From positions 1-49,260 of the forward strand of contig JAKSVG010000006.1 of the NCBI GenBank assembly GCA_024408105.1: DNA of 49,260 nt. The letters are read 5' to 3'. The position numbers were made by a program, and so were the translations under genes. A model generated the notes under the pieces. The model was given only the letters and a program-made list of their open reading frames with translations. It did not search any database and was not told where the DNA came from. Below are positions 26,782 to 49,260 of this stretch, in pieces (positions within the stretch are counted from its first letter, which is position 1; every line of letters begins with the position of its first letter). This DNA comes from Bacilli bacterium (lineage in GTDB: Bacteria; Bacillota_I; Bacilli_A; RFN20; CAG-826).

Positions 26782-26796
26782 ATGCTAACCTCCAAA

Positions 26797-29192: not shown

Positions 29193-29203
29193 ATTCACCC
29201 TCC

Positions 29204-30481
29204 TTAATCATCCTTCAAACCTTCGAGGTTACTATCATATATTTCTAAGAAATTCTTGAAGTCAGCCTCTGTAGAATCAGCCTTAACTGAACTAGAAAGT
29301 GTAGCAACATTACTCCACCATGAACCAGGGCACATATTTTGTTCATTAGCGAATTCAGCTTGAGCAGCAAGTGCAGCTAATCCCGGTTGATCTAATACAG
29401 CTTGTTCTTTACTAGCTGCAATATTACTTGGGCCCCAACCAGCTTCATTAAATCTTTCAGTTTGGCATTGTTGATTTGTTAAATAACGAGCAATTTTCCT
29501 GCAAACAGAGGCTTTTTTACTATCTGTTTGTGGTTTTACACCAATCAACTTAAAGCCACTATAACTTGAAATATGATATGATTGTCCATCAACAATAAAA
29601 CTTGGCATTGGAGCGCAACCTAAGTTTTCTCCAAGCGCTTGCTTAGCAGCAGCATAGTTCCAAATACCAGAGATAGCAACAGCAGCTGTATCACCTAATT
29701 TATTTGTTTGATCATTAGGAGATACTAAGTCACTTGCTTTAAGTTTTTGAAGTGCCTTCATTGCAGGCATACCGTTAGCCTTATAAGTATCTTCATAGCC
29801 TGTAAAGTTACCGGTAGCAGGATCAATGGACCATTTAGAATAACAACCAGTTGCCATAAAGTAGCTTGCAGCGTAGAATCCATCAGCAAATACTTTGTAA
29901 TTGATACGCTTTCCAGCTGCTTTACATTTAGCAATGATTGTGTCCATGTTCAAAATGTCTGATTCATTTAGAACACTCTTATCATAATACATGAAGTAGC
30001 CATTATCGCTTGTCATTGGGAATGCACATAAATTGCCTCCATATGTTGCAGCGTTAACAGCACCTTTCATATTGTCTGACTTAACGCTATCAGCCATAGT
30101 AGATGTAATATCCATTAATGCACCAGCAATTTTAAGTCTTGATAATTGGTCTTGAGCAAAGCAGAAGATATCTGCGCCAGATTGAACGTCTTGGAGCATA
30201 TCACTTGCTGCATCGCCTTCAGATTCAGGCTCAACATTAACAGTGAGTTTGTATTTGCCACCATTAAGAGATTCAAATGCGGCAATTTGAGTTTGCGTTA
30301 AAGTAAGGATAGATTTATCGCACCAAACTTTAATATTGTATTCACCTTCATCATCATCTTCATCTGGGAGTGTATCATCAAATGGATAAGGATCGACATT
30401 GTAGTCAAACTTAAACGTACATCCACTCAAAGTTAAAGAAGAGAGAGTGAGTAAGACAAATAATAATTTTTTATGTTTCAT
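29204..30481 (-). CDS. malE: Maltodextrin-binding lipoprotein (MalE type)
   Basis: 425 aa from the second ATG (30481), 6 nt after GGAGG; the ATG at 30484 is 3 nt from it. The lipobox is LSGC (Cys21), then an acidic linker and a type I solute-binding fold beginning INVW-like (NIKVWCDKS) with 'FNEAGWGPSN' near the C-terminus, as in extracellular sugar-binding proteins. It delivers maltodextrins to MalFG. It lies 12 nt before malF. Confidence 0.93.
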   Translation of the reverse strand: MKHKKLLFVLLTLSSLTLSGCTFKFDYNVDPYPFDDTLPDEDDDEGEYNIKVWCDKSILTLTQTQIAAFESLNGGKYKLTVNVEPESEGDAASDMLQDVQSGADIFCFAQDQLSRLKIAGALMDITSTMADSVKSDNMKGAVNAATYGGNLCAFPMTSDNGYFMYYDKSVLNESDILNMDTIIAKCKAAGKRINYKVFADGFYAASYFMATGCYSKWSIDPATGNFTGYEDTYKANGMPAMKALQKLKASDLVSPNDQTNKLGDTAAVAISGIWNYAAAKQALGENLGCAPMPSFIVDGQSYHISSYSGFKLIGVKPQTDSKKASVCRKIARYLTNQQCQTERFNEAGWGPSNIAASKEQAVLDQPGLAALAAQAEFANEQNMCPGSWWSNVATLSSSVKADSTEADFKNFLEIYDSNLEGLKDD

Positions 30482-30493
30482 CATAGCCCTCCT

Positions 30494-31057
30494 TTAATCT
30501 ACCCAGATACCATAGAGATTTGTGACAGCTTGCTGCCTATAATCTTTTGTAAAGTCCCACATATGTCCCTTATCACCTAAACAAGATGAATATGCCGAGA
30601 ATCCAAGGAAGTTTGTGAAGTCATATTTTGTTGTAAAACCAAGAGTTTCACCAATGGCAAGGACTTTCTCTTTGGAATCAATTTCCTCAGGACATGCCCC
30701 TAATGGTTTCAACATAAACCATTTAATTGTGAATATTGGACAATCAAGTCCATTAGCATCTGTTGTTTGCGTGGAATCGAAATAGAAATTAATGGTTGTA
30801 TCGTATTCACTTATGCAAACATATTCAGTGCCATTCCACTTAAATTTAAGTCCATCATCATCAGTGTAATAAGTTTTAGTAGGATCTTTGGCATGCTCGA
30901 ATTCACTCTTAACTAATGTTTCATAATCTGCGACATGAACTTCGTTGTGAAGTGTATCGACAACTCCACCATGAGATGGATGGTATGCTTCAGAATTACA
31001 ACCGCCAATTAATAATGGAATTAATAGTAAAGGAACAATTTTAAATATCTTTTTCAT
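30494..31057 (-). CDS. Lipoprotein of unknown function in the starch operon
   Basis: 187 aa, lipobox LIGGC (Cys20), with two further Cys pairs (for example Cys147 and Cys150-type positions in PLGACPEE and YSSCLGD). No domain recognised. AGAGGAG precedes the ATG. It sits 1 nt after pulA and 12 nt before malE, so it is expressed with the starch genes and may bind carbohydrate or assist the importer. Confidence 0.75.
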   Translation of the reverse strand: MKKIFKIVPLLLIPLLIGGCNSEAYHPSHGGVVDTLHNEVHVADYETLVKSEFEHAKDPTKTYYTDDDGLKFKWNGTEYVCISEYDTTINFYFDSTQTTDANGLDCPIFTIKWFMLKPLGACPEEIDSKEKVLAIGETLGFTTKYDFTNFLGFSAYSSCLGDKGHMWDFTKDYRQQAVTNLYGIWVD

Positions 31058-31058
31058 A

Positions 31059-34000
31059 TTATAAAGCTCCTCTCTTACAAACTCTTATGGCATAGCCATA
31101 GTATTCATTACCTAAGTCAACGCCGCTACCAGTATAGCTTTGTGGACCATAATCAAATAAGCAATTATTATAAATTGACATATCATCTAATGGAACAACG
31201 CCACGTTGTTTACCTGCAACAAAGATGAAATATTCATCATATTGAATTCCAAGTGCCCAAGGTTGTCCTTCACCTGTCCAGAATAAGTTAACATATTGCT
31301 TGCCTGCACTTGTTGTGCCGCTAGGCCATGTTTCAAATTTATTTGCTGGCGCACTCTTAGGAATGCGATTATGAAGTCTAACAACGCTCTTCCAAGCATC
31401 ATTGTATTGATATTCAGCATTTGTGACTGTCACACCATCTAATTCAACTTGAAGTTTATTGCCCCATTTAAATGAGTTAACTTTTAAAGGTGAATTGTAT
31501 GAGTTATGTGAAATATAGTGACTATGAAGTTGTGTATATGTATTTTCTAAACATTCTTCTTTTACATCTTCAGTTACTTCTTTAGTTCTAAACAATTCTT
31601 CACCGCCAAGCATAAATGCTGCTGCGTTTGATGCAAATACAATTGTGTGAGAGGCGATTGATGCTTTAACAATGTCAATAATGTTGGCAGGTTGACCATC
31701 AACTATTGTGTTATAAAGTTGATCTCTGCATGTCCAGTTATCGTGACAAGAAACATAATTAACAGTTTGCTTAACAAAATTTGATTTTCCACGATGAATG
31801 CCCCAAACCATATCTGCAATAGCATTAGGTTCATCATACATGTCAGTTGTTTTTTGCATGAATCCTTTTTGAGGATAGACTTGTTCTTGACCCCATGCAC
31901 TGTTAGCGCCTTTAACAGCATTTCTGCCTGTATCATTAAAGCAGCCAAGGTAGCATGAATCGACATCATCATTACCAGTCATTGGATCAAAATTATTGCA
32001 ATATTTGTAAACTTCATAAGTAGAAGCAGAACCATTGTTGTAATTTGAACCATGATATCCACCACTAGTCCAACCTTCACCATAAATATAGATATCTTTA
32101 TCTAATGTTGATAATTTTTCTTTTAATTGATTAAGGGTTACATAGTCAAGTAAACCCATAAGGTCAAATCTAAAGCCCTTAATCTTATATTCTTTTGCCC
32201 ACATATACACGCTATCAATAATGAATTTTCTCATCATTGGAGCGTCACTTTTAACTTCGTTATGGCAACCAGAACCATCATATAATTCTCCGTTTTCATC
32301 ATATCTAAAATAATATCTAGGCATGAGTTTATTGAAGCAAGATGCACTTGGTGATGAGACGTGGTTATAAACGACGTCCATAATAACACGTGTATGTGCA
32401 TCCGTTTTGCTCATTTGAAGAATTAAGTTCTTAAATTCTCTAATACGAGTTAAACCATTTGAAGGATCACTAGAATAAGAACCTTCAACACAGTTATAGT
32501 TAAGTGGGTTGTATCCCCAGTTATATTTATTAATACCTTTTTCTGTTTCGTCATTATCGTGATCAAAAACAGGTAATAATTGAACAGCTTTTACACCAAG
32601 TTCATTTAGATGGTCATAGCCAGTTGAAATTTCAGGATGATCTTTTAAATGGGTGCCTTTTTCAACAAAAGCATTATATGTACCATTTTTATTACCTTGG
32701 TTTGAAACCCATGATTCATCTCCAGTAAAGTCTTTAACATGGACTTCATAAATGGATAAATCTTGAGGTGTTGCTATATCATAGCCAGGTTCTCCATCCC
32801 AAACAAGAGGTAATTCATCCCAACCATCAGGATTTGTTTCGCTCTTATCATAAATCATTCCACGAACACCACTTGTTCCACAAGCAGTTGCATATGGGTC
32901 CATTGTGATTGATGTTCCGTTTAAATTATCGACTTGGAATGCATAATATTTATTTTTAAGTGAGTTTGTTGGAGTATCAAATAATGTAATTGACCACACA
33001 CCACCTTCAAGATAATTCATGTGCCAACCGACATATTTGTCATCGCCACCAAAAGCGGCACTTGTATTGCTTTCATAAATAAGTAGGGACATATTTGCAG
33101 CAATAGGAGCCCAAACTTTAAATGTTGTGAATCCTTTGTGATATGTCATTCCTAAATCAGAGCCACTATAGTTATAATATTTTTCAAATTTAGCAGTTTC
33201 ATAAAGGTTTTCAAAAGATGCATAAACTGTTTTACTTAGCGCACTTGTTGAAGAAATTTCTTTAGAAACTAAGCAATAAACCATGTTAATTTTAGCAGTA
33301 TAAGGGAATGTGATATCAAATTCCTTAACTTCACCGCTAACATCATTTAAACCGGTCATAACTAAGAAGTTTTTCTTGATAGCTTCACGCTTTTTTAGTT
33401 TAATTCTGTAATAATTCTCATCGAAAGCATAAAGTTCCCAAGAAACATTCTTTGTCTCACTTGTAGTGACACAATGAATTGTCTTCCAGTCTGTAAATTT
33501 AGCTAATTTGATGCCATCAACTTTAGTTTCGGCTTCGGTTGCAAATTGAGCCATACCGCCACCAGCAGCTGGTGTACACCAAACATTGACTTCTTCATTA
33601 ACAGGTGGGAATTGAGCGTAATGAAGCTCAACGTCATCTGACTGACCACCCCAGTTAAGATTACTTGGAGAAATCATTTTATATTTAATAATATACATTA
33701 AACCTGTTCCACCAACGAATTCAGTAAATCTTGAATCAGGTGAACCTTGTTTAATGTTAATAGTAATTGTCATCTGCGTTCCATCTGCGGAATAGGAGAC
33801 AATATCTGCGCCATTTTGCTCATCAGAATACTCGACACCATCAACACCATTTGTCCAAATGTAGAATGCGCGGTTTTTACAAAGACCATCTTCATTCACA
33901 TAGTGAATCTTTACTGTACTAACTGGTCCAATTTCCTCTTCTTCTTCATCATCGCTAGCAAAATGAGGATGATTAATATCAAAAGGAACATCATGAGAAT

Positions 34001-34109
34001 ATTCAATAGGATCTTCTCCTGCAGCATCTTTAGTAAATATGCTAGGTACAACTAAAGATAAACCAAGGATTGGCGTGAGCAATGCGACTATAATTTTTTG
34101 CTTCTTCAT
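31059..34109 (-). CDS. pulA: Type I pullulanase (GH13), secreted
   Basis: 1016 aa from the second ATG (34109), 5 nt after GGAG; residue numbers below count from 34112. A signal peptide (about 1-30, no lipobox) is followed by an acidic linker, a CBM41-like domain (about 65-180), a CBM48-like domain (about 325-415), then the GH13 barrel with pullulanase signature YNWGYNP (530-536), nucleophile Asp650 in GFRFD, acid/base Glu679 in IYGEGW and His790-Asp791. It cleaves alpha-1,6 branches of pullulan and starch. There is no LPxTG or membrane anchor, so it is probably released or held by binding modules. Fourth-to-last step of the operon before malE. Confidence 0.94.
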   Translation of the reverse strand: MKKQKIIVALLTPILGLSLVVPSIFTKDAAGEDPIEYSHDVPFDINHPHFASDDEEEEEIGPVSTVKIHYVNEDGLCKNRAFYIWTNGVDGVEYSDEQNGADIVSYSADGTQMTITINIKQGSPDSRFTEFVGGTGLMYIIKYKMISPSNLNWGGQSDDVELHYAQFPPVNEEVNVWCTPAAGGGMAQFATEAETKVDGIKLAKFTDWKTIHCVTTSETKNVSWELYAFDENYYRIKLKKREAIKKNFLVMTGLNDVSGEVKEFDITFPYTAKINMVYCLVSKEISSTSALSKTVYASFENLYETAKFEKYYNYSGSDLGMTYHKGFTTFKVWAPIAANMSLLIYESNTSAAFGGDDKYVGWHMNYLEGGVWSITLFDTPTNSLKNKYYAFQVDNLNGTSITMDPYATACGTSGVRGMIYDKSETNPDGWDELPLVWDGEPGYDIATPQDLSIYEVHVKDFTGDESWVSNQGNKNGTYNAFVEKGTHLKDHPEISTGYDHLNELGVKAVQLLPVFDHDNDETEKGINKYNWGYNPLNYNCVEGSYSSDPSNGLTRIREFKNLILQMSKTDAHTRVIMDVVYNHVSSPSASCFNKLMPRYYFRYDENGELYDGSGCHNEVKSDAPMMRKFIIDSVYMWAKEYKIKGFRFDLMGLLDYVTLNQLKEKLSTLDKDIYIYGEGWTSGGYHGSNYNNGSASTYEVYKYCNNFDPMTGNDDVDSCYLGCFNDTGRNAVKGANSAWGQEQVYPQKGFMQKTTDMYDEPNAIADMVWGIHRGKSNFVKQTVNYVSCHDNWTCRDQLYNTIVDGQPANIIDIVKASIASHTIVFASNAAAFMLGGEELFRTKEVTEDVKEECLENTYTQLHSHYISHNSYNSPLKVNSFKWGNKLQVELDGVTVTNAEYQYNDAWKSVVRLHNRIPKSAPANKFETWPSGTTSAGKQYVNLFWTGEGQPWALGIQYDEYFIFVAGKQRGVVPLDDMSIYNNCLFDYGPQSYTGSGVDLGNEYYGYAIRVCKRGAL

Positions 34110-34122
34110 CATTTCTCCTTTC

Positions 34123-35130
34123 CTAATTTAGTTGTAATTCTATCCAATATTTATACATTCCATCACCTTGAGGATTTAAATCGAAATATAAGATGAATCT
34201 TCCGTCTTTAACAATCTTCATATTTAAATCTCCACCACTTTGGAATTCAACATATGTTAATGCGTTTTCGCCTGCACCAGAATTAGATGCACTGACGCTA
34301 TACCAATTTGTTAACGAAGAATCTTCTCCGTTATATTGAGCAACTTTAAATTCCTCATTAGCTTTAGCCTCAAATTTAATCATATATTCCTTATCGGTAT
34401 ATGGACTTTCATTCTTAGTTAATTCATAAGAAGCATTCGCCTTCCACTCGTTAGGTGTGCCATACAAGTAATAATTACCAATAACTAAATCTTTCTTAGG
34501 AGACACATTGACTGTGCAAGAAGCAGTCTTACCACCATCAACTGTTGTAACTTTTATAACGGCGGTTCCTTCTTTTAATGCACAAGCATTTCCATTATCA
34601 TCAACTGAAACCACACTTGGTTCTGATGATTCATAACGAACTAATTGATTCGTCGCGTTATTTGGATAAACTGCAGCAATGAATATATATGAATCACCAA
34701 CAGTTAAATCTAATGTTTCAACATCTAAAGATACGGATTCAACTACCACAACAATACCTTGTTCATTGACAACAACATGTAAGTCGGCAGCTTTTGATTC
34801 ATCACCTAGAGGTGTAACAGTGATATCTGTTTCACCAATTTTAACTGGTGTTACCGCAAATTTTTCGCCACTTTTGCCATCTTTTTTAGATAAGGTAGCA
34901 ATAGTTTCATCTTTAACAGAAACTTTTAATGAATCATTGAATTCACCTTCTCCATTAATGGTTGGGATAAATTCTTTAGGTTCATTGCCAACCTTCAAAA
35001 CAAGACTTTGAACATCAAATGATACACCTGAAATAGTAAAGTCCTCTTTTTTTGGAACCCCATTATTAAGCACGCATGAGCTGAGCACAGGCGCAAATAA
35101 TAAAGGAAGAATAGTAATAATTTTCTTCAT
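34123..35130 (-). CDS. Ig-like/starch-binding-type lipoprotein
   Basis: 335 aa, lipobox LSSC (Cys19). Two Ig-like modules follow: about 30-125 and a clear BIG2 domain at 130-210 (VSLDVETLDLTVGDSY, YPNNATNQLVRYESS, TVDGGKTASCTVNV). The C-terminal domain (about 215-335) begins NYYLYGTPNEWKANASYEL, the strand pattern of SusE/SusF-like or CBM26-like starch-binding modules. It probably holds starch at the cell surface. It lies between amylase and pullulanase with 6- and 10-nt gaps. Confidence 0.8.
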   Translation of the reverse strand: MKKIITILPLLFAPVLSSCVLNNGVPKKEDFTISGVSFDVQSLVLKVGNEPKEFIPTINGEGEFNDSLKVSVKDETIATLSKKDGKSGEKFAVTPVKIGETDITVTPLGDESKAADLHVVVNEQGIVVVVESVSLDVETLDLTVGDSYIFIAAVYPNNATNQLVRYESSEPSVVSVDDNGNACALKEGTAVIKVTTVDGGKTASCTVNVSPKKDLVIGNYYLYGTPNEWKANASYELTKNESPYTDKEYMIKFEAKANEEFKVAQYNGEDSSLTNWYSVSASNSGAGENALTYVEFQSGGDLNMKIVKDGRFILYFDLNPQGDGMYKYWIELQLN

Positions 35131-35136
35131 AAGCTA

Positions 35137-37767
35137 CTATCCTTTCATAAATATAGTTAAACCAAATCTAACCGCGCCAATATTGCCGCCGTTAACTGTA
35201 GGTGCTCCACCTAATGCTAAAACATTATTGAAGCCTGGTTCTACATTGATTTTATATTCAGAATCGTCTCTACCATTATTTAAATAAATAACAATCTTTT
35301 CATTATTTGATTCATCTCTAATAGACATTCTAAGAACATTATAGGATGAATATTGGTATTCAACTTTCGCACCCTTTGGATAATAAGTTTTCTTAAAGTT
35401 ATTAATTGCTTTATACCAACTATAGAATGTAGATTCTGTTTGAACGTTACCTGTAGCTGGATCATATTTAATTCCTTCATTATTATTTAATAAATGCTTA
35501 TTATGATCATCTAATTCAAAAGCATATTGACCACTAGAATAATTTGGACGTGACGCCTTATCATTCCAAAGGAATGGTTGGCGATACCAAATATCCATAT
35601 TATTTTCATTACCATATTTCTCGATATGCTTATTTGTGTTTGAGGACATACCAAGTTCATCACCATAATAAAGCCATGATAAACCAGGATTAAGCATTGT
35701 TACAGCACCTTGGAATTTAGCACGTCCATTAATCCAAGGATCATTATATGCAACATTATCATTTGCGATAGTCGAGTCTTTATTTCCTCTACCATCCGCT
35801 TGATTAATAAGTCTCATAACGTCGTGGTTTGAAGTGAATGCTCCATTGATAAAATCGCCACGGCAACCGCCTTGTGCTTTTCTATTTGCTCCAATTTCAA
35901 ATTCTTCACTAGAAGCAAATGGAATAAATGTTTCTGTTGCTTGCATAGCATCATAATTAGCTGCACCTTTTTCATCTTGAAGAATCCATGCAGGAACATG
36001 ATAGTAATTTGAGAAATCAAATTGAGAATCAAGTGCTTGATAATATTGAGCAGTTCTTGTGCCCCATCCATCAAAGTTCTCACCAACAAGGAAGCAATTT
36101 GGATATGAAGCTTTTAAACTTGATGAGAATTCTCTCCACCAATTAACATTCTTAGTTAAATCTGATGAATAGTCGTATTTTTTAGCAACATATTTACCTT
36201 TTTCATCGTCAAATGATTCTTTTTCACCAACGTCAGTAACGATGATGTCATCACCAGTGTCATTAACTTCGTCTTTCATATAAATATGTTTGACTGCGTC
36301 AAGTCTAAATCCATCAAGTCCAAATTGAAGCCATTGTTTGGCTGTATCAATAACAAGTTTTCTTGTATCTTTGTTTTCGTAATTAATTTCAGGCATACCA
36401 CTACCGAATTTTCCATAATAGTAGTAATTTGATTCACCATCTTTATACCAAGATGGGTTATCACTTTCTGCGTCTTCTTTTACTGTAACTTCGCTATAGC
36501 CATCGCAAACCCATTTGCCTAAAGCTGAGTCATAATGAGTTTTTGCTTTTTTGATCTTATCAGTAGCGTATTTCCAAGTATAAACATTTCTCCATTTAAT
36601 ACCTGTATCATCTGTTTCAGTTCCAGGTTGTCCACTATTAACTGCCCATTTTGATTTAGAGAACCAAGTATTTGTTTTTGATGTATGGTTCAAGACAAGG
36701 TCCATTAAAACCTTGATTCCTTTAGAATGAGCTTTTTGAATAAGTTCACTATAATCTTCTAGAGTGCCATATCTACGATCGACATCCATATAATCTGAAA
36801 TATCATATCCATGATATGAATCTGATTTTTGAACTGGAGTTAACCACAAACAATCAACACCTAAATCAGTAAAATAATCTAATGAGTCGATAACGCCACG
36901 AATATCGCCAATTCCATCGCCGTTGCTATCTCTGAACGAGGCAACAAATACTTGATAACCAACTTTAGTATTTTTAAATGCATCAGAAGTTGGAGTTGGA
37001 GCAGTACATTGAGGAATTGCCTCAGTAACACTATCAAATTTACCAGTTGTATCTGAATCGACAGGATTGACCTTTGGCTGAGGTGTTCCACTACCAGCAA
37101 AGTATGTGTAATTTGATAAATCACCAGTAGAAGTAAATATATGAATTGTTTTTCCACCTTCAACTGAGCGCCAATTTGTTTCATTTGCAAAATCATCAAT
37201 ATATGTTTCGGCGCCACCATCAGATGTCCAGTTCTTCTTGCCATCCATCGAAGATTGTAACGGAAGAAGGAAACCTAATTCTTCTGCGCCATCAAATGAA
37301 ACACTTGTGCCAGTCTTTCCACCAACTAAATCACTACGCGTTAAATCGACATCAAAAATAATGCCGTATTTATCAATATATGTTCCACCACCTGCAAGTC
37401 CGACATCTGGAAATGTCATAAATGCAGTTGACATAGGTCTTAATGTTAACTTATCAGAAACTTGAGTAGGACCATCATATCCCCATAATGTTCCTTCGAG
37501 GTTCTTTGGGAAAAATTGCCAAAGCCATAAACAATAGTTGTTATAATCTTGAGCACCTTCACCGCGGTTATAGTGAAAATATAAATGTCCTGGTTTAGAC
37601 CAAGAATTTAGCCACACATCATAATCATCTGGATCAAGACTTGTAACTGTACCGCTAGAAGTGATTGACGAAGAAGTAGTCGTATCACCTGTTGAAGAGG
37701 AATTACCTCCACAACTAGTCAAAACAATACTTGTTAAGACAAATAAAATTAAATGTGTTCGTTTCAT
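35137..37767 (-). CDS. Alpha-amylase family lipoprotein (GH13) with CBM41-like N-terminus
   Basis: 876 aa, lipobox LTSC (Cys19) and a Ser/Thr linker. Residues 50-235 contain a CBM41-like module (GHLYFHYNRGEG and NNYCLWLWQFFPKNL). The catalytic barrel starts at about 270 (VFVASFRDSNGDGIGDIRG) with nucleophile Asp490 in GFRLDAVKH, acid/base Glu563 in LVGEN and His648-Asp649 in TSNHD, and a C-terminal beta domain. It would hydrolyse alpha-1,4 bonds at the cell surface. It is the first gene of the long starch operon. There is no strong ribosome binding site. A cre site overlaps the promoter. Confidence 0.94.
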   Translation of the reverse strand: MKRTHLILFVLTSIVLTSCGGNSSSTGDTTTSSSITSSGTVTSLDPDDYDVWLNSWSKPGHLYFHYNRGEGAQDYNNYCLWLWQFFPKNLEGTLWGYDGPTQVSDKLTLRPMSTAFMTFPDVGLAGGGTYIDKYGIIFDVDLTRSDLVGGKTGTSVSFDGAEELGFLLPLQSSMDGKKNWTSDGGAETYIDDFANETNWRSVEGGKTIHIFTSTGDLSNYTYFAGSGTPQPKVNPVDSDTTGKFDSVTEAIPQCTAPTPTSDAFKNTKVGYQVFVASFRDSNGDGIGDIRGVIDSLDYFTDLGVDCLWLTPVQKSDSYHGYDISDYMDVDRRYGTLEDYSELIQKAHSKGIKVLMDLVLNHTSKTNTWFSKSKWAVNSGQPGTETDDTGIKWRNVYTWKYATDKIKKAKTHYDSALGKWVCDGYSEVTVKEDAESDNPSWYKDGESNYYYYGKFGSGMPEINYENKDTRKLVIDTAKQWLQFGLDGFRLDAVKHIYMKDEVNDTGDDIIVTDVGEKESFDDEKGKYVAKKYDYSSDLTKNVNWWREFSSSLKASYPNCFLVGENFDGWGTRTAQYYQALDSQFDFSNYYHVPAWILQDEKGAANYDAMQATETFIPFASSEEFEIGANRKAQGGCRGDFINGAFTSNHDVMRLINQADGRGNKDSTIANDNVAYNDPWINGRAKFQGAVTMLNPGLSWLYYGDELGMSSNTNKHIEKYGNENNMDIWYRQPFLWNDKASRPNYSSGQYAFELDDHNKHLLNNNEGIKYDPATGNVQTESTFYSWYKAINNFKKTYYPKGAKVEYQYSSYNVLRMSIRDESNNEKIVIYLNNGRDDSEYKINVEPGFNNVLALGGAPTVNGGNIGAVRFGLTIFMKG

Positions 37768-37788
37768 ATGTATATTTTATATATATAC

Positions 37789-37817
37789 ATTAAAGCACAC
37801 TAAGAAAACGCTTACAA
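37789..37817 (-). promoter_or_regulatory. Starch operon promoter with overlapping CcpA cre site
   Basis: Minus strand -35 TTGTAA (37817-37812), 17-nt spacer, -10 TTTAAT (37794-37789). The sequence TTGTAAGCGTTTTCTT (37817-37802) matches the cre consensus WTGNNARCGNWWWCAW at 15 of 16 positions and covers the -35 and spacer, so glucose repression through CcpA is expected. The start would be about 15 nt before the ATG. Confidence 0.65.
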
Positions 37818-37830
37818 TAATTTTATAAAA

Positions 37831-37851
37831 ATTAACAAAAAATTAGTTAAT
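37831..37851 (-). terminator. Weak terminator after malQ
   Basis: Minus strand ATTAAC/GTTAAT stem overlapping the malQ stop, then TTTTTATAAAATT. It is AT-rich and only 6 bp, so termination may be partial. Confidence 0.35.
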
Positions 37852-39253
37852 TACCAAACTTAATTTGTCGTATAAACGACATATCTTTTAATTTCCATTC
37901 CCAGTTTGGAGATCCAACTGTACCTGGATAATTCATTCTAGCTCTATCATCAAGTCCTAATAAATCTTGGAGAGGGAAAATAGTAATATATGAAGGTAAA
38001 TTCCATGTGTATTCAAACATAGCTTTAAGAAGATTTTTTGGATAGTTAAAACGATCCTTTAAAAATTCAATGTTTGCTTCTGGCAATGATTTTAACCAAC
38101 CTTTTAAAGTTTGATTATCATGTGTTCCCGGATAAATAATTTGTGTTTCTTTACTATTTTGATTAATATCAAAAACTGTAAATTCAGTAATATACATACC
38201 AGGTAGTTTATAGTAATCTCTTAAATCATGAACGCCTTGGAATAAGTCTCCTAAATCTTCAGCGATTAAAGATATATTTGGATATTGTCTATAAAGTTCA
38301 TTAAAGAAATCATAACGAGGCCCAATTTTCCATTCGCCACGACGAGCATTTTCATCTTTTCCAGGTATAACACAATAAGTGTCCCATGCTCTAAAGTGAT
38401 CTAGTCTTAATAAATCGCATGTTGTAGCTAGATACCCAATTCTATGAACTAAAAGTTCATAGTTATTTGATTTCATCTTCTCAAAATCATATATTGGTGT
38501 ACCCCATAATTGGCCATCATCACTGAATGCATCAGGTGGACAACCACTAACAATACTTGGCTCATAATTTTCATCAAAATGAAATTGTTCTTTGTTTGTC
38601 CAACAGTCAGTTGAATCAATGCCAACATAGAACGGACAATCAGCGATGATCTTGATTCCTTTTCTTTTCGCGTACGCCCATAATTTGTTCCATTGTTCAT
38701 ATGCAATCATTTGACACCACGCATAGAATAAACAATCTTCTTCGCTTCCTTTAGGAAGACCTTGCTTAACATTATAAAGCATCTCGTCTTTTGGCCATTT
38801 ATTCCAAGAAACAAGATTATTTTTCTTTCTAAAATATATAAATATAGAATATGGTTCAACCCATGTATTATCTTTGATAAATTTATGAAACTTATTAGTG
38901 TTTCCTTTTAAATAATTTTTAAAGGCTTTACGTAAATATTTTTCTTTAAATGTATCCACTTTTTGATAATCGACTCTAGTAGATTTTGCCCTGAAGTTTG
39001 GAACGTTATTTAAAAGACCTTTTTTTATAAGCATATCAAATGATATATATCTAGGTTCAATAGCTTCACTACAAGTGGACATGTATGGTGAGTTTCCAGG
39101 ACCAACAGGATTTAAGGGAAGAACCTGCCAATATTTATAATTATGTTTAACTAAAAAGTTAATAAATTTATATGCATTTTCACCAAAATCGCCAATCCCA
39201 TGGTTAGAAGGCAATGATGAAATAGCTAATAACACTCCATATTTTGATTCCAT
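37847..39253 (-). CDS. malQ: 4-alpha-glucanotransferase (amylomaltase, GH77)
   Basis: 468 aa, near the usual 490-500. Starts with LLAISSLPSNHGIGDFG, and carries the GH77 catalytic motifs LRLDHFRAWD (nucleophile Asp), SLIAEDLGD (acid/base Glu) and YPGTHDNQTLKGW. It rearranges imported maltodextrins in the cytoplasm to release glucose and longer chains. It lies 1 nt after a HAD phosphatase gene on the same strand, separate from the importer operon. Confidence 0.95.
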   Translation of the reverse strand: MESKYGVLLAISSLPSNHGIGDFGENAYKFINFLVKHNYKYWQVLPLNPVGPGNSPYMSTCSEAIEPRYISFDMLIKKGLLNNVPNFRAKSTRVDYQKVDTFKEKYLRKAFKNYLKGNTNKFHKFIKDNTWVEPYSIFIYFRKKNNLVSWNKWPKDEMLYNVKQGLPKGSEEDCLFYAWCQMIAYEQWNKLWAYAKRKGIKIIADCPFYVGIDSTDCWTNKEQFHFDENYEPSIVSGCPPDAFSDDGQLWGTPIYDFEKMKSNNYELLVHRIGYLATTCDLLRLDHFRAWDTYCVIPGKDENARRGEWKIGPRYDFFNELYRQYPNISLIAEDLGDLFQGVHDLRDYYKLPGMYITEFTVFDINQNSKETQIIYPGTHDNQTLKGWLKSLPEANIEFLKDRFNYPKNLLKAMFEYTWNLPSYITIFPLQDLLGLDDRARMNYPGTVGSPNWEWKLKDMSFIRQIKFGN

Positions 39254-42048: not shown

Positions 42049-44751
42049 TTATAGCCAATTAAGTTCGTATGTTGTTATACCTGAAATTATATCAACATTA
42101 TCTGTTTTGTTATAAATTTTACCTGGACCATCATCAATTTTGTTCCAATCAGGTTGGGTTGTGCCGTTTGCACACCTAACTAACAAGAAGTGAGTGAATT
42201 TTCCTGGAAGTTCAAAAGATGTTGAAGTAGAGCCAACAGTGTAAGAAATTTTAACCCAAGTACCATCCTCAGCTGTGCTCCAAGCCCAAGCAAATACAGG
42301 AATTCCAGCCGTTCCAAATGCCCATGATTGGTCACTCTTTAATGTAACTGTGTAGGTGACAACAGCAGGTGTTGGACCAGCAGATTCAGAAATATAAACA
42401 ACATCTGCTCCCATTGCAAGTTTAACATAGAAGTTAAAAGTTCCTTCTTTACTTGATAATAACACACCGTTATCAATAGCAAATCCGTGATTATCTCCAC
42501 CAATAGTTAATGAAGTTAGAACTTCAGGTGTTGAAGGGGCGATATTTTCGAAATAAATAGTGTCATTTGTATTCATTTCAATATTTAATGCTTCGAGTTG
42601 TGGATTACCACTTGGATCTGTTCCAGGTGTTAAAGTTACAGGATCGTCGTCATTTAAGACATAAGCATAAACAGGTTCTGGTGGAGTTGGCTCTCCAATA
42701 TAAACACCCTTTATGCCAGCTTCAGAGGAGGTTTCGACATAAAGATCATAAACACCTGTAACATCGCACTTAATCCATTTATATGAACCTTCTGAGAATT
42801 TATTTGATGAACCTTCTTTAATATCTCTATAGTCAAATAGAGTGGTATCGATAATGAAACGAATTAAATCACCACTTTCAAGATGTTGATCAAGAGCGCA
42901 GTATTCACTTGTGCTTGGTGAATTTAAACTCATTGCAACTTCACTAATCGCACCTAAATGATTTACTTCCATGACATATTTAGATGTCATAACAAAACCA
43001 CTAACCCAAACTTCAAGTGGGCTCAAAAGTTTTAAGAATATACCTTTGTCGCTAGAGGCAGCAAGAGGCATCTTAACTTTCAAGACTGAATCGACTAATG
43101 CAACGTTATTGTAATTCACACCAATATCTAGACTTGGTTGAACATTCATAACAGCATCATTACGTTTGAACGACAATGTATCATTTGCATTTAATGCAAT
43201 ATTAGTAATATAAGCCTCAGTTTCTAATTCATTAACAGTGAGGGCTTGATATGCTCCACCATTAATTGAAACGGAATATGTGTTTTCATGTTCTTGATAA
43301 CCGCATAACCAACATTGATCATTTCCGTAACAAAGTTTTAAATAAACTTTAACATTAGTTGCAGTAGTTAAAACTGTAAGTGCATAATCAACGTTATTTC
43401 CTTCGGCTGGATCACCAGTAACACTATCAAGATGTATCTCATTAGAATAGAATGATAAAACATCTCCCTCGGTTACACTTATTGTTTGTTCATATTGTGC
43501 GCTGAATCCTGATGGAACTGGTTCAGTCGAAACATTCATTTTTATTGGATCGCCACTGCCAACTTTAACGTAATAATCTAAATGATATCCAGATAACCAA
43601 ACTTGCCAACCTGTATCATATTCTTTTAAATAAATCATTACGTTATCTGCACTAGATAAAACCCTGCATGGTGAACCACCAGCATTGTTTCCTTCTCCTG
43701 GCGAGGTAAATTCGCCAATTGGTGTTCCGTTATGTGTAAAGTCAATACTTTGACCGACTGTAACAGAGGCTATATTTGCATAGTATTGATGTATCCAAGT
43801 ATCTTCACCTTTTTCACCATCATAAATCGCTAATGGTATTTCGTTTCCGCCAATAATGGCACTATATTCAGATGCAGGAGGATTTGTAACTTCTAATGCG
43901 CATGTCGCAGTAAATCCTCCATCTGTTGTTGTGGCAGAAATAGTTGCGTTACCAACACCAACACCTAGAACAAGTCCTTTATCACTAACGCTTGCAATTA
44001 ATTCATTGCTACTTTCCCAAGTAACAGTTTTATCCGTTGCATTGGATGGTGAAATGACTTTTGTCAATTGAATTGTTTTTCCAATAACGACACTAGCTTC
44101 ATTAGGGTTTATCGTTACTCCACTAACATGAATAATTTCAGGCCCACCATCAACAACGACTGCGCAGGAAGCAAATTTGCTGACTCCGTCGATAACTTCG
44201 TTTGAGGTAGCTCGAATAACAGCTGTTCCAGCTTTCAAGGCTGTGACAGCACCACCATCAATAGAGGCAACCTCCGGATCAGTCGTTGACCAGGTTATAT
44301 CTTTATTTGTTGCATTAGTAGGCAAAACTGTAGAAATAAGGGTCTCAGAATCGCCAATGCCTAAATTTAATTCGGTTTTATTTAATACAACACTATTAAC
44401 GTGAACTGGTTCAGGTTCTTTCTCTTTTACAGTAACCGAACAGGAAGCAGTTTTATCACCGTCAACTGTCGTAACTGTAATTGTTGCAGATCCAACTGTA
44501 TAAGCATGAATCTTTCCTCCAAGAACAGTGGCAACATCTTTATTCGATGTTGTCCATTTTACTGATTTATTAGTTGCAGTGTCAGGACTTATGGTTGCAG
44601 TTAATGTTTCTTCCGCATCAACAGGAAGTGTGATTTCGGTTTTATCAAGAGAAACGCTTTCAACAGGAACAGCATTTCCGCCGTTATTGCCACAACCACT
44701 TAATAAAATGCCAAATAAAGGCAATAGTAATAATATCTTTTTCTTTTTCAT
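42049..44751 (-). CDS. Lipoprotein with three BIG2 domains and repeated starch-binding-like modules
   Basis: 900 aa, lipobox LSGC (Cys20). Three BIG2 Ig-like domains (about 28-110, 115-200 and 208-290) share 'ATNK-x-(V/I)-x-W-x-(S/T)' and 'TVDGDKTASC'-type strands. About five beta modules of 90-100 aa follow, each with 'N-x-x-x-Y-L-K-L/E' and 'VW-LSGY' or 'CWLCGY' ends. The last domain (about 805-900) has IPVFAWAWST and 'TTQPDWNK...YNKTDN', close to the W/QT pattern in the neighbouring 601-aa protein. Likely a long surface arm presenting carbohydrate-binding domains. A GTAGGG precedes the ATG. Confidence 0.8.
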   Translation of the reverse strand: MKKKKILLLLPLFGILLSGCGNNGGNAVPVESVSLDKTEITLPVDAEETLTATISPDTATNKSVKWTTSNKDVATVLGGKIHAYTVGSATITVTTVDGDKTASCSVTVKEKEPEPVHVNSVVLNKTELNLGIGDSETLISTVLPTNATNKDITWSTTDPEVASIDGGAVTALKAGTAVIRATSNEVIDGVSKFASCAVVVDGGPEIIHVSGVTINPNEASVVIGKTIQLTKVISPSNATDKTVTWESSNELIASVSDKGLVLGVGVGNATISATTTDGGFTATCALEVTNPPASEYSAIIGGNEIPLAIYDGEKGEDTWIHQYYANIASVTVGQSIDFTHNGTPIGEFTSPGEGNNAGGSPCRVLSSADNVMIYLKEYDTGWQVWLSGYHLDYYVKVGSGDPIKMNVSTEPVPSGFSAQYEQTISVTEGDVLSFYSNEIHLDSVTGDPAEGNNVDYALTVLTTATNVKVYLKLCYGNDQCWLCGYQEHENTYSVSINGGAYQALTVNELETEAYITNIALNANDTLSFKRNDAVMNVQPSLDIGVNYNNVALVDSVLKVKMPLAASSDKGIFLKLLSPLEVWVSGFVMTSKYVMEVNHLGAISEVAMSLNSPSTSEYCALDQHLESGDLIRFIIDTTLFDYRDIKEGSSNKFSEGSYKWIKCDVTGVYDLYVETSSEAGIKGVYIGEPTPPEPVYAYVLNDDDPVTLTPGTDPSGNPQLEALNIEMNTNDTIYFENIAPSTPEVLTSLTIGGDNHGFAIDNGVLLSSKEGTFNFYVKLAMGADVVYISESAGPTPAVVTYTVTLKSDQSWAFGTAGIPVFAWAWSTAEDGTWVKISYTVGSTSTSFELPGKFTHFLLVRCANGTTQPDWNKIDDGPGKIYNKTDNVDIISGITTYELNWL

Positions 44752-44821: not shown

Positions 44822-47278
44822 TTAATATTTTTTCAACATTTCTATTAGCCATGCAGCAGAAATCTTACTTGCATCAGCTGAAAATTTTTCGAAGTCAGTA
44901 CCGCTAGAACCATCTGCTGTATCGGACATACTTCTTATTATGCAAAAAGGAATATCATTTTGTAAGCAAACATGTCCAATCGCAGCACCTTCCATCTCTA
45001 CGCAAAGAGCCATAGGAAAGTTTTCAATTATGTGTTTTCTTTGTTCTTCTTTAGATACAAATTGATCACCTGAAGCTATCACACCTTGTTTTACAACAAC
45101 ATTTTTAGGTTTTGTGTTCATTATCTTGTCGATTAAAAACTTAGATGCCTTCATTTCAACGCATCCCAAAGCATCAATATAACCCAATGGAAGTCCTATT
45201 TGTCTTAAGTCTAAATCCCATTCAACAACGCTTCTAGAAACAACAACATCTCCAACTTTTAAATCAGGGTTTAGGGCACCCGCACAACCTGTGTTTATAA
45301 TGTAATCAGGATGATAATTATCAATCATGGCTTGAGCACAAATACCAGCGGAAACCTTTCCCATGCCGCATTGCATAATGATAATTTCATTATCACCTAA
45401 AAATCCAGTATAGGCGGGTTTATTTAATAATGTAATTTTAGTCACGTTTGAAAGATGGGCTCTAAACAAATCTTCTTCATATTTCAAAGCAGCAATAATT
45501 CCATAACGTGTTTTTGCGTTTTTGTTCTTGCTTGAATCATTACAAACATTCGGAAGAAGTAACTTACCACAAGTTAAATCATCTTCATCTTCACCATAAT
45601 TATCATCGCAAATAATAACATTCCAACCAAGACTTACAAATTCTGATTCCAAATGATTTATTAATGATTGCTCATTGCAATTCATTGTGTCAAAACCTCT
45701 ATCAATTGCATTATATGTCGAATGAATTGGTGTTAACTTAATAAGGAATTTATCTTTGCTAAACAATTTATCAATAGTTTTTGCGTCAATAGTAGATTCT
45801 TTGCCAACAGCAAAAGACAAACAATATTTATAACCGATAGGAAGCGGCATCTTCTTCCCAATCTCAGCAATGTCTTCAAGGGGTAAACTTCTTTTATCTA
45901 ATAAAATATCCCGAGATTTATTATCAGTTGAATGAATGCTAAATTGAAGCAATGCATCCCCGTTATAAACATCATTTTTAATTCTGCAATAATCCAAAAT
46001 AAAACGTTCCACTAAAATTTTGTTTCTTGGAAGCATTGTTGAAATGCTAGGAACAATTCTCTCAGCATCAATATTTTTGTTTATTAACTTACGTAAATCA
46101 TATTCAATAAATTCTAAAATTTCATTATTAAATGAAGGCTCCCCCATTCTAGTGAAATCAATTTCAAAATATTTTGTTTGAGTAACATAATGGGTATCAA
46201 TGATAGTCTTAAGTTGATATTCTAAATCTTCTTTACTCACATTTCCGTGGAATCCAAATGATGGGCAATCGCAAAACGCACAATTCATCAAGCATCCGCG
46301 TTGAGTAGATAAAGATGTATACCACCCTTTTTCATATGAAATTTCCGAATTAGTTTTCTTAGTAATAAATTTTGCCTTGACTCTGTTTTCAAAAACATCT
46401 CCAGGAAAAGATACAAATTCAATTTTCTTCTTCGTATCCAAATAAATTGTTCCATGCTTTTTTGTAATAATTTGTAGTCCTGCTTGTTTTTTTACTAAAG
46501 TGTGGCGAATTTGCATCACAATTATGGAAATTGCTAAAACAGAGCTAGTCGTAATAATAGTAACAAGGTAAATATCTTTCCAAATAGCAAGATTTGTATC
46601 ACCATGTTTTACCAAATATACAATAAGTATATTGATTCCAAAAATGACTAGTTGCAGTAATGATGAAAATAAAATAATTTTTTCGTTATCGGAAAGCTTT
46701 CTTCTACCTTTGTGTAAAAACCTTGAATAAATATGATCAAGCAGAACCATTAATGGAAGTCCAAATGCAAGGCAAACACCAAAATCGTTTAAAGCGGCAA
46801 ATCCTGCAACTTCAATGAAATTAATTGTTGAATCGCTATATAACTGAATGAGTCCAACAGCGGCGCCTATAGGTATAGCATTGACCGCCATTAAGGCTAC
46901 ATACACCACTACTTTTAAAGGAGAATCTAATCTAGTCCTCATTGAGATGCTTTTTGCAAATAGTTTCCAAATGTAATAAGGCAAAATTCCATATATTAAT
47001 TGAGGTAATAAACCCATTAAAGCAACATTTATTCCATAGCCTGAAACAAGGTCAGAAACAAAATTACCTAATGTGCACCCAATAGTTGCAGGCCATCCAT
47101 AGGCTAAACCCAAAACAGGATTTAATGTTCCGGAAGGACGCACAGTAGAAACTTCATATACCGGAATTGCTTTATTAAATAAAATAGTGATTCCAAAAAA
47201 TAAAAGGAATGAGATAGCGAAAACAACTATGTTTTTTCTATTTATAATTCGTCTCAGAAGTCTTTTCTTATATTCCAT
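44822..47278 (-). CDS. Triple fusion: ECF-S-like membrane domain, RlmN/Cfr-like radical SAM domain, MTA/SAH nucleosidase
   Basis: 818 aa in one uninterrupted frame. Residues 15-260 carry six or seven transmembrane helices with PSGTLNPVLGLAYGWPATIG, a pattern of ECF-transporter S components such as QueT. Residues 280-580 are a radical SAM domain: Cys329, Cys333, Cys336 (CxxxCxxC), GEP (379-381), QFSIHST, IKLTPIH and GEDEDDLTCGKL with Cys570, as in RlmN/Cfr. Ser322 replaces the second RlmN cysteine. Residues 591-818 are MTA/SAH nucleosidase with catalytic Glu601, Glu763 (VEMEG) and Asp786 (SMSDTADG) kept. The family hydrolyses 5'-deoxyadenosine, the radical SAM by-product. No ribosome binding site; a strong promoter with a palindrome lies upstream. 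The substrate is unknown. Confidence 0.9.
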   Translation of the reverse strand: MEYKKRLLRRIINRKNIVVFAISFLLFFGITILFNKAIPVYEVSTVRPSGTLNPVLGLAYGWPATIGCTLGNFVSDLVSGYGINVALMGLLPQLIYGILPYYIWKLFAKSISMRTRLDSPLKVVVYVALMAVNAIPIGAAVGLIQLYSDSTINFIEVAGFAALNDFGVCLAFGLPLMVLLDHIYSRFLHKGRRKLSDNEKIILFSSLLQLVIFGINILIVYLVKHGDTNLAIWKDIYLVTIITTSSVLAISIIVMQIRHTLVKKQAGLQIITKKHGTIYLDTKKKIEFVSFPGDVFENRVKAKFITKKTNSEISYEKGWYTSLSTQRGCLMNCAFCDCPSFGFHGNVSKEDLEYQLKTIIDTHYVTQTKYFEIDFTRMGEPSFNNEILEFIEYDLRKLINKNIDAERIVPSISTMLPRNKILVERFILDYCRIKNDVYNGDALLQFSIHSTDNKSRDILLDKRSLPLEDIAEIGKKMPLPIGYKYCLSFAVGKESTIDAKTIDKLFSKDKFLIKLTPIHSTYNAIDRGFDTMNCNEQSLINHLESEFVSLGWNVIICDDNYGEDEDDLTCGKLLLPNVCNDSSKNKNAKTRYGIIAALKYEEDLFRAHLSNVTKITLLNKPAYTGFLGDNEIIIMQCGMGKVSAGICAQAMIDNYHPDYIINTGCAGALNPDLKVGDVVVSRSVVEWDLDLRQIGLPLGYIDALGCVEMKASKFLIDKIMNTKPKNVVVKQGVIASGDQFVSKEEQRKHIIENFPMALCVEMEGAAIGHVCLQNDIPFCIIRSMSDTADGSSGTDFEKFSADASKISAAWLIEMLKKY

Positions 47279-47329
47279 TTTTCGTTCGATTTTAACAACA
47301 AAATATTTTTTAACATTTTATCTTAAAAT

Positions 47330-47359
47330 TTTATATATGTTAAGCGCGCTTATTGTCAA
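47330..47359 (-). promoter_or_regulatory. Promoter of the triple-fusion gene with palindromic operator in the spacer
   Basis: Minus strand -35 TTGACA (47359-47354, consensus), 18-nt spacer, -10 TATAAA (47335-47330). The spacer contains the perfect palindrome TAAGCGCGCTTA (47341-47352), a likely repressor site. The leader would be about 45 nt, too short for a typical riboswitch. Confidence 0.6.
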
Positions 47360-47407: not shown

Positions 47408-48379
47408 TTATATCACTTTCCAATACCCATAGCGTTTCCCATTTATTCTCTTAATCTTTCCACTACTTTTCAAGACTTTTAATAGTGATTTTATTGTCCG
47501 AACAGAAACATTAATTTGTTTAGAAAGTTGTTCTGAAGTTATATGAGGATCATTTCTAATAATTTCTAAAACTCTAGATTCTCTCGATGTATTATTGCTT
47601 TTAGTTTGAATTGAAGAAATGTGAAGATTTCTGTTTTGCAAATCATTATGCTCTCCTAAAAGAAGATTTTTCAAAAATTTAATCAAATAGGTGCGATCTT
47701 CAAATACACCCTTGATAATATTATTATAGTTAGCTCTCACTAATGAATTTCTAAAATACCAAGAATTTTTAGCAAATGTATCATTAGTAACATCAAATCC
47801 TAAACTTCTCAAATATTTGATGAAAAATACTGCTGTCGTTCTAGTATTCCCTTCTTCAAAAACGTGAATTTGCCAAAGATTAGCGATAAAAATAGCAAGG
47901 TGCTCAATAATTTCATTAATAGATAAGTTTTTATAATTAAATTTCTTTTCTCGTTCAAAATCATATTGAAGCGTCATTTCTAGTTCTCTATAATCGCCAT
48001 ATGTTACCGTATCACCATCAAGAACCCATTCCTCTTTAGAAAAATTATATTTTCGCAATTCTCCTGGATTTTCAAGAATACCATCAAAAAGAGTCCTATG
48101 AATAGCCAATAATTGCCCTACTGTAAATGTAAATGAATCTTCTGAAATAATCTTCGCTATTCGGATAGATATTTTATCCGCTTCTTCTACTCTATCTCCA
48201 TAACAAGGCTTACTCTCATAGTAAGAAGAAATAATTGTATCTAATTCTTCTAAAGATATTTCACCTTTAATATATCTATTTGTTTCATTTAAAAAGTAGG
48301 TTGAGTTTTTAAGTCTATCGACATCTTGTAAGCCAATACCAGTCTCGATAATATATTTTTTATTAAAACTATTTTTCAT
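47408..48379 (-). CDS. Fic-family protein with C-terminal winged helix
   Basis: 323 aa from the ATG at 48379; a start at 48436 was rejected because it lies beyond the promoter and reads through operator repeats. The Fic core has 'ELRKYNFSKEEWVL', then the active-site loop HVFEEGNTR with catalytic His kept (canonical HxFx[DE]GNxR; the usual second Gly is Thr). The C-terminal 70 aa form a winged helix (VLEIIRNDPHITSEQLSKQ, NVSVRTIKSLLKVLKSSGKI). Fic domains transfer AMP or other groups from nucleotides to target hydroxyls. The fused DNA-binding domain and the GTGCA repeats upstream suggest autoregulation. Confidence 0.88.
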   Translation of the reverse strand: MKNSFNKKYIIETGIGLQDVDRLKNSTYFLNETNRYIKGEISLEELDTIISSYYESKPCYGDRVEEADKISIRIAKIISEDSFTFTVGQLLAIHRTLFDGILENPGELRKYNFSKEEWVLDGDTVTYGDYRELEMTLQYDFEREKKFNYKNLSINEIIEHLAIFIANLWQIHVFEEGNTRTTAVFFIKYLRSLGFDVTNDTFAKNSWYFRNSLVRANYNNIIKGVFEDRTYLIKFLKNLLLGEHNDLQNRNLHISSIQTKSNNTSRESRVLEIIRNDPHITSEQLSKQINVSVRTIKSLLKVLKSSGKIKRINGKRYGYWKVI

Positions 48380-48386
48380 ACTTGTG

Positions 48387-48531
48387 ATTATATAACACAT
48401 AATTTCCAAAGTGCAATCCCAAAGTGCAACGTGCACTTAGACGTGCAAATTCATATTAATAAATTCTTGTGTGCAAAGCGACATTAATATACAAAGTATA
48501 TTATATGGCTCAATACATTAAAGGGTTGCAC
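48387..48531 (-). promoter_or_regulatory. Fic gene promoter within a cluster of GTGCA motifs
   Basis: Minus strand -10 TATAAT (48392-48387) is 7 nt before the ATG; -35 TTGCAC (48416-48411), 18-nt spacer. GTGCAA or GTGCAC occurs at 48411, 48424, 48431, 48443 and 48471, and in reverse as TTGCAC at 48526. AAGTGCA-ACG-TGCACTT (48422-48438) is a perfect inverted repeat. Probably bound by the Fic protein's own winged helix. Confidence 0.6.
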
Positions 48532-48534
48532 TAA

Positions 48535-49260
48535 TTACCTTAGCGATATAAAACACTCTGTTACAAAGAACTCTATTAAATCTTCTGATCTATCTTCATA
48601 GTAATCTAAAAGCAAAGTTTTATATTTTTCTATTTTTTCTACTGGAACAACCATCAAACCAACACCATGACTAATCAAATAATGATTTCCAAAAATTACA
48701 GCCGTTCTTTTATTTCCGTCAATAAAAGTTTGCGTTTTCATTGAGTAAGCAATTAATTTAGCAGCTTTTGTGACATGATCAAGGTCAATATCATTTATAA
48801 TGGATTCGATATCTTCTTTAACTTTAAACTCAAAAGGGATTGGAGGAATATACGAAGAGCCTCCAATTGTAACTGGTGTAGACCTAATCTTGCCTGCACT
48901 ATAAGATATTCCTTCTTCAACCAAGCCATTAATTTGGCATAACAAGGCATAGTTGGTAGGATAGCATTCAACATCGTAGTCCATTATGAATTCCCAAGCG
49001 TGTTTCAAATTAAGTATTTTTTGAACATCTAAAGTTGACATATCGTGGACTTTTCCTTCATTAACAATAGTCTCAGTATCAGAATAAGTTGTAGCAACGC
49101 CTTCAAGAATGGATTGTTTGTAAATTGAATCAACAAGATTTCTGCGTGCTAAATCGATATTTAGAAGAATATCATCTTCCATCTCTTTATTTGCATCAGG
49201 AAAACTCTTTAATTCCTTTTCTAACTCTTTCAATCTCTTCTTTAATTCTTTTACTTTAAT
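48535..49260 (-). CDS. Fic-family protein with Gln in place of the catalytic His (5' end outside the window)
   Basis: The frame stays open to the window edge, with Lys/Glu-rich coiled-coil-like codons before a TTG at 49233, so the gene is probably truncated by the window; 241 codons are visible. The core has 'SILEG' (like the inhibitory-helix Glu region), 'GKIRSTPVTIGGSSYIPP' and the active-site loop QTFIDGNKRT, in which Gln stands where HxFx[DE]GNxR has His. This Q-variant occurs in part of the Fic family and may not AMPylate. The downstream neighbour is a His-containing Fic gene with winged helix, so the two may act as a pair. Confidence 0.85.
   Translation of the reverse strand: MKVKELKKRLKELEKELKSFPDANKEMEDDILLNIDLARRNLVDSIYKQSILEGVATTYSDTETIVNEGKVHDMSTLDVQKILNLKHAWEFIMDYDVECYPTNYALLCQINGLVEEGISYSAGKIRSTPVTIGGSSYIPPIPFEFKVKEDIESIINDIDLDHVTKAAKLIAYSMKTQTFIDGNKRTAVIFGNHYLISHGVGLMVVPVEKIEKYKTLLLDYYEDRSEDLIEFFVTECFISLR

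Follow-up and report, generated by a model that had tools for sequence, protein, structure and literature searches.

The window (the whole 49,260-nucleotide stretch of DNA analysed here) carries on its minus strand a gene whose product joins an S-component-like membrane domain, a radical SAM domain of RlmN-like fold and an MTA/SAH nucleosidase (MTAN). The features of the gene are collected in Table 1.

Table 1. Predicted features within and upstream of the fusion gene; positions are those of the window
Feature	Residues	Position	Strand	Basis or remark
Fusion gene (S-component-like membrane domain, RlmN-fold radical SAM, MTA/SAH nucleosidase)		44822..47278	-	818 aa
Putative sigma-70-type promoter TTAACA-17-TAAAAT, upstream of the ATG		47315..47343	-	consensus match
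Six-helix S-component-like fold	~14-188	46715..47239	-	nearest Pfam profile QueT, PF06177
Two extra helices between S-fold and soluble part	~197-257	46508..46690	-	AF2 secondary structure
Radical SAM domain of PHROG 24834, RlmN-like fold	~269-576	45551..46474	-	PHROG, AF2
CxxxCxxC, [4Fe-4S] cluster ligands	329-336	46271..46294	-	Cys invariant 69/69
Cys570, counterpart of RlmN methyl-carrier Cys355	570	45569..45571	-	invariant 69/69
Variable linker	577-589	45512..45550	-	15% identity between fusions
MTA/SAH nucleosidase domain; E601, E763, D786	591-815	44834..45508	-	NCBIfam, Pfam

Organization and distribution of the fusion gene

The translated frame starts with ATG and contains zero internal stops over its 818 aa, which bears out the unbroken frame of the preliminary description and adds the strand that was not given there; the plus strand across the same interval holds many stops. 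When the product was searched against Pfam, the profiles QueT, Radical_SAM and PNP_UDP_1 were found in this order along the protein. A three-domain ORF without stops was also found in three MAGs of a different genus (open frames of 832, 836 and 817 aa, 68-69% identical to the fusion of the window), and the public records matching these relatives are Bacilli MAGs from horse faeces. Because the same architecture is carried unbroken in a second genus, the fusion is not a matter of chance, and an assembly or frame artefact was ruled out; nor are the three parts always separate genes, as four genomes carry them fused.

The window and the three MAGs are the only four examples known, which gives a thin sampling of the constraint on the whole fusion, the MAGs being incomplete. 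Pairwise comparison of two of the three relative MAGs gave dN/dS values of 0.043 for the membrane domain and 0.024 for the MTAN domain, which are rough since synonymous sites are close to saturation; both domains are under strong purifying selection. Identity between the fusions was 65-79% in the domains and 15% in the linker, the MTAN being the best conserved (78-79% vs 65-68% for the others). Among 395 genomes of the class, the sole match to the membrane-domain profile was that of the window itself, and the three known fusion genomes, absent among the matches, are evidently not in this sample. In the openly accessible literature we found neither a radical SAM-MTAN fusion nor an S-component-radical SAM fusion described, nor any description of the three-domain architecture, which the preliminary description had likewise not known as a described system.

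The gene appears to stand alone and its neighbours differ between the genera, the window having genes for Fic and Ig-like proteins and the relatives an ffh-like gene among others. The putative promoter upstream of the ATG is a match to the consensus only, the region showing 20 against 14.9 expected, and no Rfam match, including preQ1 or other riboswitches, was obtained near the fusion gene.

The membrane domain resembles an S-component without the docking motif

QueT was the nearest Pfam profile to the membrane domain in all four fusions. With the whole protein of the window it matched residues 20-181 (E 1.5e-7) at 32.2 bits against a gathering cut-off of 33.7, and on the genomic stretch it scored 37.2 bits in the window and 37.2-45.3 bits in the four fusions, above the cut-off in each case. 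An hhalign comparison with the local QueTs gave 76%, and an HMM built from these QueTs had zero match to the fused domain. With the AF2 model (pLDDT 79), a Foldseek TM above 0.5 was obtained only for TmRibU 5kbw (TMt 0.64) and the transporter 4m5b (0.54); as the Foldseek E-values were weak (about 2) and the AF2 alignment included QueT sequences, the assignment of the S-fold rests on the TM-score together with the profile match. Both agree with the ECF-S-like membrane domain proposed earlier. The flanks of the domain are rich in K/R, placing its N- and C-ends in the cytoplasm as for an N-in topology, and from this distribution the soluble domains are predicted to face the cytoplasm.

In the alignment to the true QueTs of the neighbours, the AxxxA motif of helix 1 was absent from the fused domain in either plausible register. 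Comparison with the local QueTs also revealed the loss of most invariant residues (Gln, Glu, Asp, the glutamate of R-x-x-E and the GE pair), so that the fused domain shares with the QueT / QrtT S-components of ECF transporters a six-helix S-component-like fold and Arg47, Gly89 and Asn133, and differs from them in these losses, in its two extra helices and in the soluble part of ~560 aa that follows. The AxxxA motif mediates docking to EcfT (Partipilo and Slotboom 2024, PMC11109136), and receptor-type S-folds lack it and have large hydrophobics in its place (PMC11109136). Since the motif is lost in the fused domain and large hydrophobics occupy its site as in the receptor-type folds, the sequence favours a role as anchor or sensor more than as importer, although the absence of AxxxA is no strict proof of non-docking, as dedicated S-components can differ. 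The 5TMR-type receptors (PMC11109136) similarly join an S-fold without AxxxA to cytoplasmic effector domains; their effectors are kinase, GGDEF, phosphatase or MCP domains, whereas that of the fusion is a radical enzyme with a nucleosidase, and the fusion has neither the extra N-terminal helix H0 nor a Pfam 5TMR match. The fusion adds a new type of effector to the S-component fold common to transporters and receptors.

The radical SAM domain has the fold of RlmN and belongs to a phage family

The cluster motif reads CLMNCAFC, and its three cysteines were invariant in 69/69 family members; it lies, like Glu601, Glu763 and Asp786 of the nucleosidase, exactly where the preliminary description had placed it. 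The Pfam profile Radical_SAM covered residues 324-414 (E 1.3e-5) and, for the whole protein, reached 25.9 bits against a gathering cut-off of 29.5. Despite this sub-cut-off score, the assignment is secure because the PHROG 24834 profile matched residues 313-583 with an E-value of 2.1e-54 and because of the fold: the top ten PDB matches of the AF2 model (pLDDT 86) were all RlmN-type, with E-values down to 2.5e-10. A profile search of solved structures returned RlmN/Cfr as the sole clearly significant relatives, and hhalign aligned the domain to RlmN with a probability of 99%.

With these class A radical SAM methylases the fusion has in common the fold, the CxxxCxxC, a GEP-type motif and a carrier-type cysteine near the C-terminus. 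The latter, equivalent to Cys570, was invariant in 69/69 family members and stands in TCG as against ACG in RlmN; its correspondence to RlmN Cys355 was made by inspection and lies outside the hhalign-aligned stretch. At position 322, which corresponds to the resolving Cys118 of RlmN, Thr was found in 65/69 members, Ser in the window and Leu in the three other fusions, so that the resolving cysteine was absent from all 69 rows of the alignment. RlmN cannot dispense with Cys118; when the residue is lost, the RNA adduct becomes trapped (PMC9692996). The family proteins are moreover too short ahead of the cluster motif for the N-terminal helical domain of RlmN. Scores with the curated models were far below the family cut-offs (RlmN, 34.8 vs 290 bits; CfrAB, 37.1 vs 530 bits), and an ordinary RlmN scoring 420 bits is encoded elsewhere in the genome. 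The score, the missing Cys118 and the separate genomic RlmN together ruled out that the fusion is an ordinary RlmN. As Cys118 and the N-terminal helical domain are both missing, the domain possesses the RlmN fold without being a member of the RlmN family, and it is set apart further by the added membrane domain and MTAN.

PHROG 24834 is annotated as 'unknown function'. Its free-standing members of ~320 aa, to which the fused domain is 31-45% identical, abound on viral contigs, where 132 stretches matched and the best 80 were kept; others are present in Bacteroides phage Versailles and on a small number of contigs assigned to gut bacteria by binning. Among plasmids there were zero matches to the family. 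In the tree the radical SAM domain of the fusions was nested inside the phage family at 90/80, but the AU test did not reject the fusions as its sister (p 0.45), and an origin inside the phage family was therefore not retained. Of the positions conserved in the free-standing family, 27 were changed in all four fusions and 53 were kept. Many of the 27 changes alternate along barrel strands (370/372/374/376, 409/411), and this switching of conserved barrel-strand residues suggests that the substrate of the fused enzyme differs from that of the phage enzymes.

The neighbourhoods of the free-standing gene vary. An NADPH-dependent FMN reductase was present within five genes in 12/87 loci, and SAM synthetase, NAD-salvage and RNA-repair genes recurred, RlaP being identified by profile and RtcB, Thg1 and CCA-adding enzyme by reading the sequence. 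Loci L092-L171 hold PHROG 24834 genes in large phages, often by FMN reductase, MetK-like, NAD-salvage and RNA-repair genes. A profile search of the loci detected no recognisable QueT or MTAN near the free-standing radical SAM genes; in these loci, therefore, the trio does not exist as a split operon and comes together only in the fusion. The fusion offers a handle on this abundant phage radical SAM family.

The C-terminal domain retains the catalytic residues of MTA/SAH nucleosidases

The Pfam profile PNP_UDP_1 spanned the whole domain (E 1.6e-45), and the cut-off of the curated equivalog NF004079 was passed (224.9 vs 169 bits), as was that of TIGR01704 (153.1 vs 73.8 bits). The domain aligned over its full length to solved MTANs, including E. 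coli MTAN 1jys, and by this alignment we take E601, E763 and D786, which are invariant in 4/4 fusions, to be E12, E174 and D197 of the E. coli enzyme. Its sequence is that of a canonical MTA/SAH nucleosidase with complete catalytic residues, differing from Pfs/MTAN in being covalently joined to a membrane radical SAM protein. PADLOC matches to the region were weak and partial, and an anti-phage effector was set aside.

A further MTAN-like gene of the genome encodes a product with a lipoprotein-like signal sequence, and a third, short match lies within a 239-residue frame on contig C46. Apart from the fusion, no cytoplasmic MTAN was thus seen in the assembly, which is 73% complete, so that a separate MTAN could be missing from it. 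In many genomes of the family the PNP-type matches were all weaker, and these genomes apparently do without an MTAN of this kind. MTAN-like proteins with lipoprotein-like signals were observed at L002:1480-2280, L218:1110-1874, L219:1213-1977 and L220:1147-1941; in the three relatives their genes adjoin a SAM synthetase gene, and the protein is possibly a cell-surface nucleosidase.

Queuosine and ECF genes outside the window

A true QueT (129 bits) is encoded on contig C34 of the genome (locus L222:5634-9441), where queT, a flavin-reductase-like gene, tgt, queA and a queH-like gene, the last identified by reading the sequence, follow in a row; this is an operon for preQ1-type salvage and queuosine completion. 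The same contig holds a complete EcfT-EcfA-EcfA module, which the preliminary description had proposed to look for. At L221:2588-4603, just upstream of a tgt gene, a 671-aa protein combines a QueT domain (9-147) with a long C-terminal extension that no Pfam profile matched, and is predicted to be another QueT fusion.

Proposed mechanism and alternatives

On balance we favour, by a modest preponderance of probability, a radical SAM enzyme of RlmN fold that is anchored in the membrane, faces the cytoplasm and carries a nucleosidase for its own by-product, the S-fold acting as anchor or sensor. The intact motif predicts that the radical SAM domain would convert SAM into the 5'-deoxyadenosyl radical. 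As it keeps the RlmN/Cfr fold and the carrier-like cysteine but has neither the resolving cysteine nor the N-terminal helical domain, its reaction would most likely be a carbon chemistry related to that of RlmN, on another substrate that is probably small. The tethered MTAN would hydrolyse the 5'-deoxyadenosine, plus SAH if a methyl group is loaded on Cys570, and product inhibition would be prevented. Such clean-up in cis, proposed earlier and still the best reading, follows from the intact catalytic residues and from established enzymology, 5'-deoxyadenosine being an inhibitor of radical SAM enzymes (PMC8102628). The S-component-like domain, devoid of the EcfT-docking motif, would be an anchor and a ligand-binding sensor or substrate presenter, not an ECF-driven importer. 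More tentatively, and with clearly less than an even chance, the receptor-type S-fold might sense or present a small molecule at the membrane and directly control the tethered, self-clearing RlmN-fold domain, as a ligand-gated radical enzyme with a new reaction.

It may also be that MTAN and radical SAM domain are merely co-tethered. That the nucleosidase is a general housekeeping enzyme which happens to share a chain with an unrelated radical SAM protein of the membrane would accord with two observations, as no second canonical cytoplasmic MTAN was found in the genome and the MTAN is the best conserved domain of the fusion, but we consider it improbable: the partner belongs to precisely the enzyme class whose by-product MTAN removes, the fusion has been kept in two genera, and many genomes of the family apparently dispense with such an MTAN. 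The earlier idea of an 'import and modify' enzyme, in which the S-domain docks a shared ECF module and imports a nucleobase-like compound for the radical SAM domain while the MTAN clears 5'-deoxyadenosine, retains its ECF-S-like fold, with a QueT-like profile match in 4/4 fusions, and the ECF module of the genome. It is nevertheless unlikely, as AxxxA and most QueT invariants are gone and C-terminal soluble domains are expected to restrict the toppling required by ECF transport (PMC11109136).

Two further readings fare worse. An RlmN-type RNA methyltransferase tethered at the membrane, its MTAN clearing both SAH and 5'-deoxyadenosine, would explain why fold and profile are both closest to those of RlmN, why the carrier cysteine is invariant and why tRNA/RNA-repair genes (RlaP, RtcB, Thg1, CCA-adding enzyme) are at times found close to the phage relatives; lacking the resolving cysteine that RlmN cannot do without (PMC9692996) and the N-terminal helical domain, and scoring far below the ordinary RlmN of the same genome, the fusion is a very doubtful candidate. 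The least probable is queuine/queuosine salvage in one protein, with a second QueT-like uptake domain and a radical SAM domain cutting queuine to preQ1 like QueL and feeding Tgt-QueA-QueH. The queuine-to-preQ1 step would be useful beside queT-tgt-queA-queH, the membrane domain comes closest to QueT among the Pfam profiles, and the known pathway includes QrtT-type transporters and a queuine lyase (PMC11130926). However, QueL (6p78) came only 17th in the Foldseek ranking (E 6e-4, TMq 0.40), with RlmN well ahead, and was not found by sequence-profile search, so that the resemblance does not go further than that of radical SAM enzymes in general, which disfavours a queuine lyase; most QueT invariants are lost, the vicinity of the gene holds no preQ1 or other riboswitch, and the free-standing relatives belong to phages, with neither QueT nor MTAN detected among their neighbours.

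If the MTAN serves the radical SAM domain in cis, as in the reading that we favour, the fusion would be a natural radical SAM enzyme with a built-in escape from product inhibition, which causes practical difficulty when such enzymes are used in vitro.

Other genes of the window

Two Fic-domain proteins are encoded upstream of the fusion gene on the minus strand (47408-48436 and 48535-49233), the first matching the PADLOC candidate defence family PDC-S72 (E 3e-122). Directly downstream (42049-44751, minus strand), the translation reads as a secreted, lipoprotein-like protein of 900 aa that contains repeated Ig-like stretches. Positions 25483-39253, again from reading the translations, hold genes of a maltose/starch-type ABC transporter and glycoside hydrolase-like genes, and are apparently a starch-use locus.
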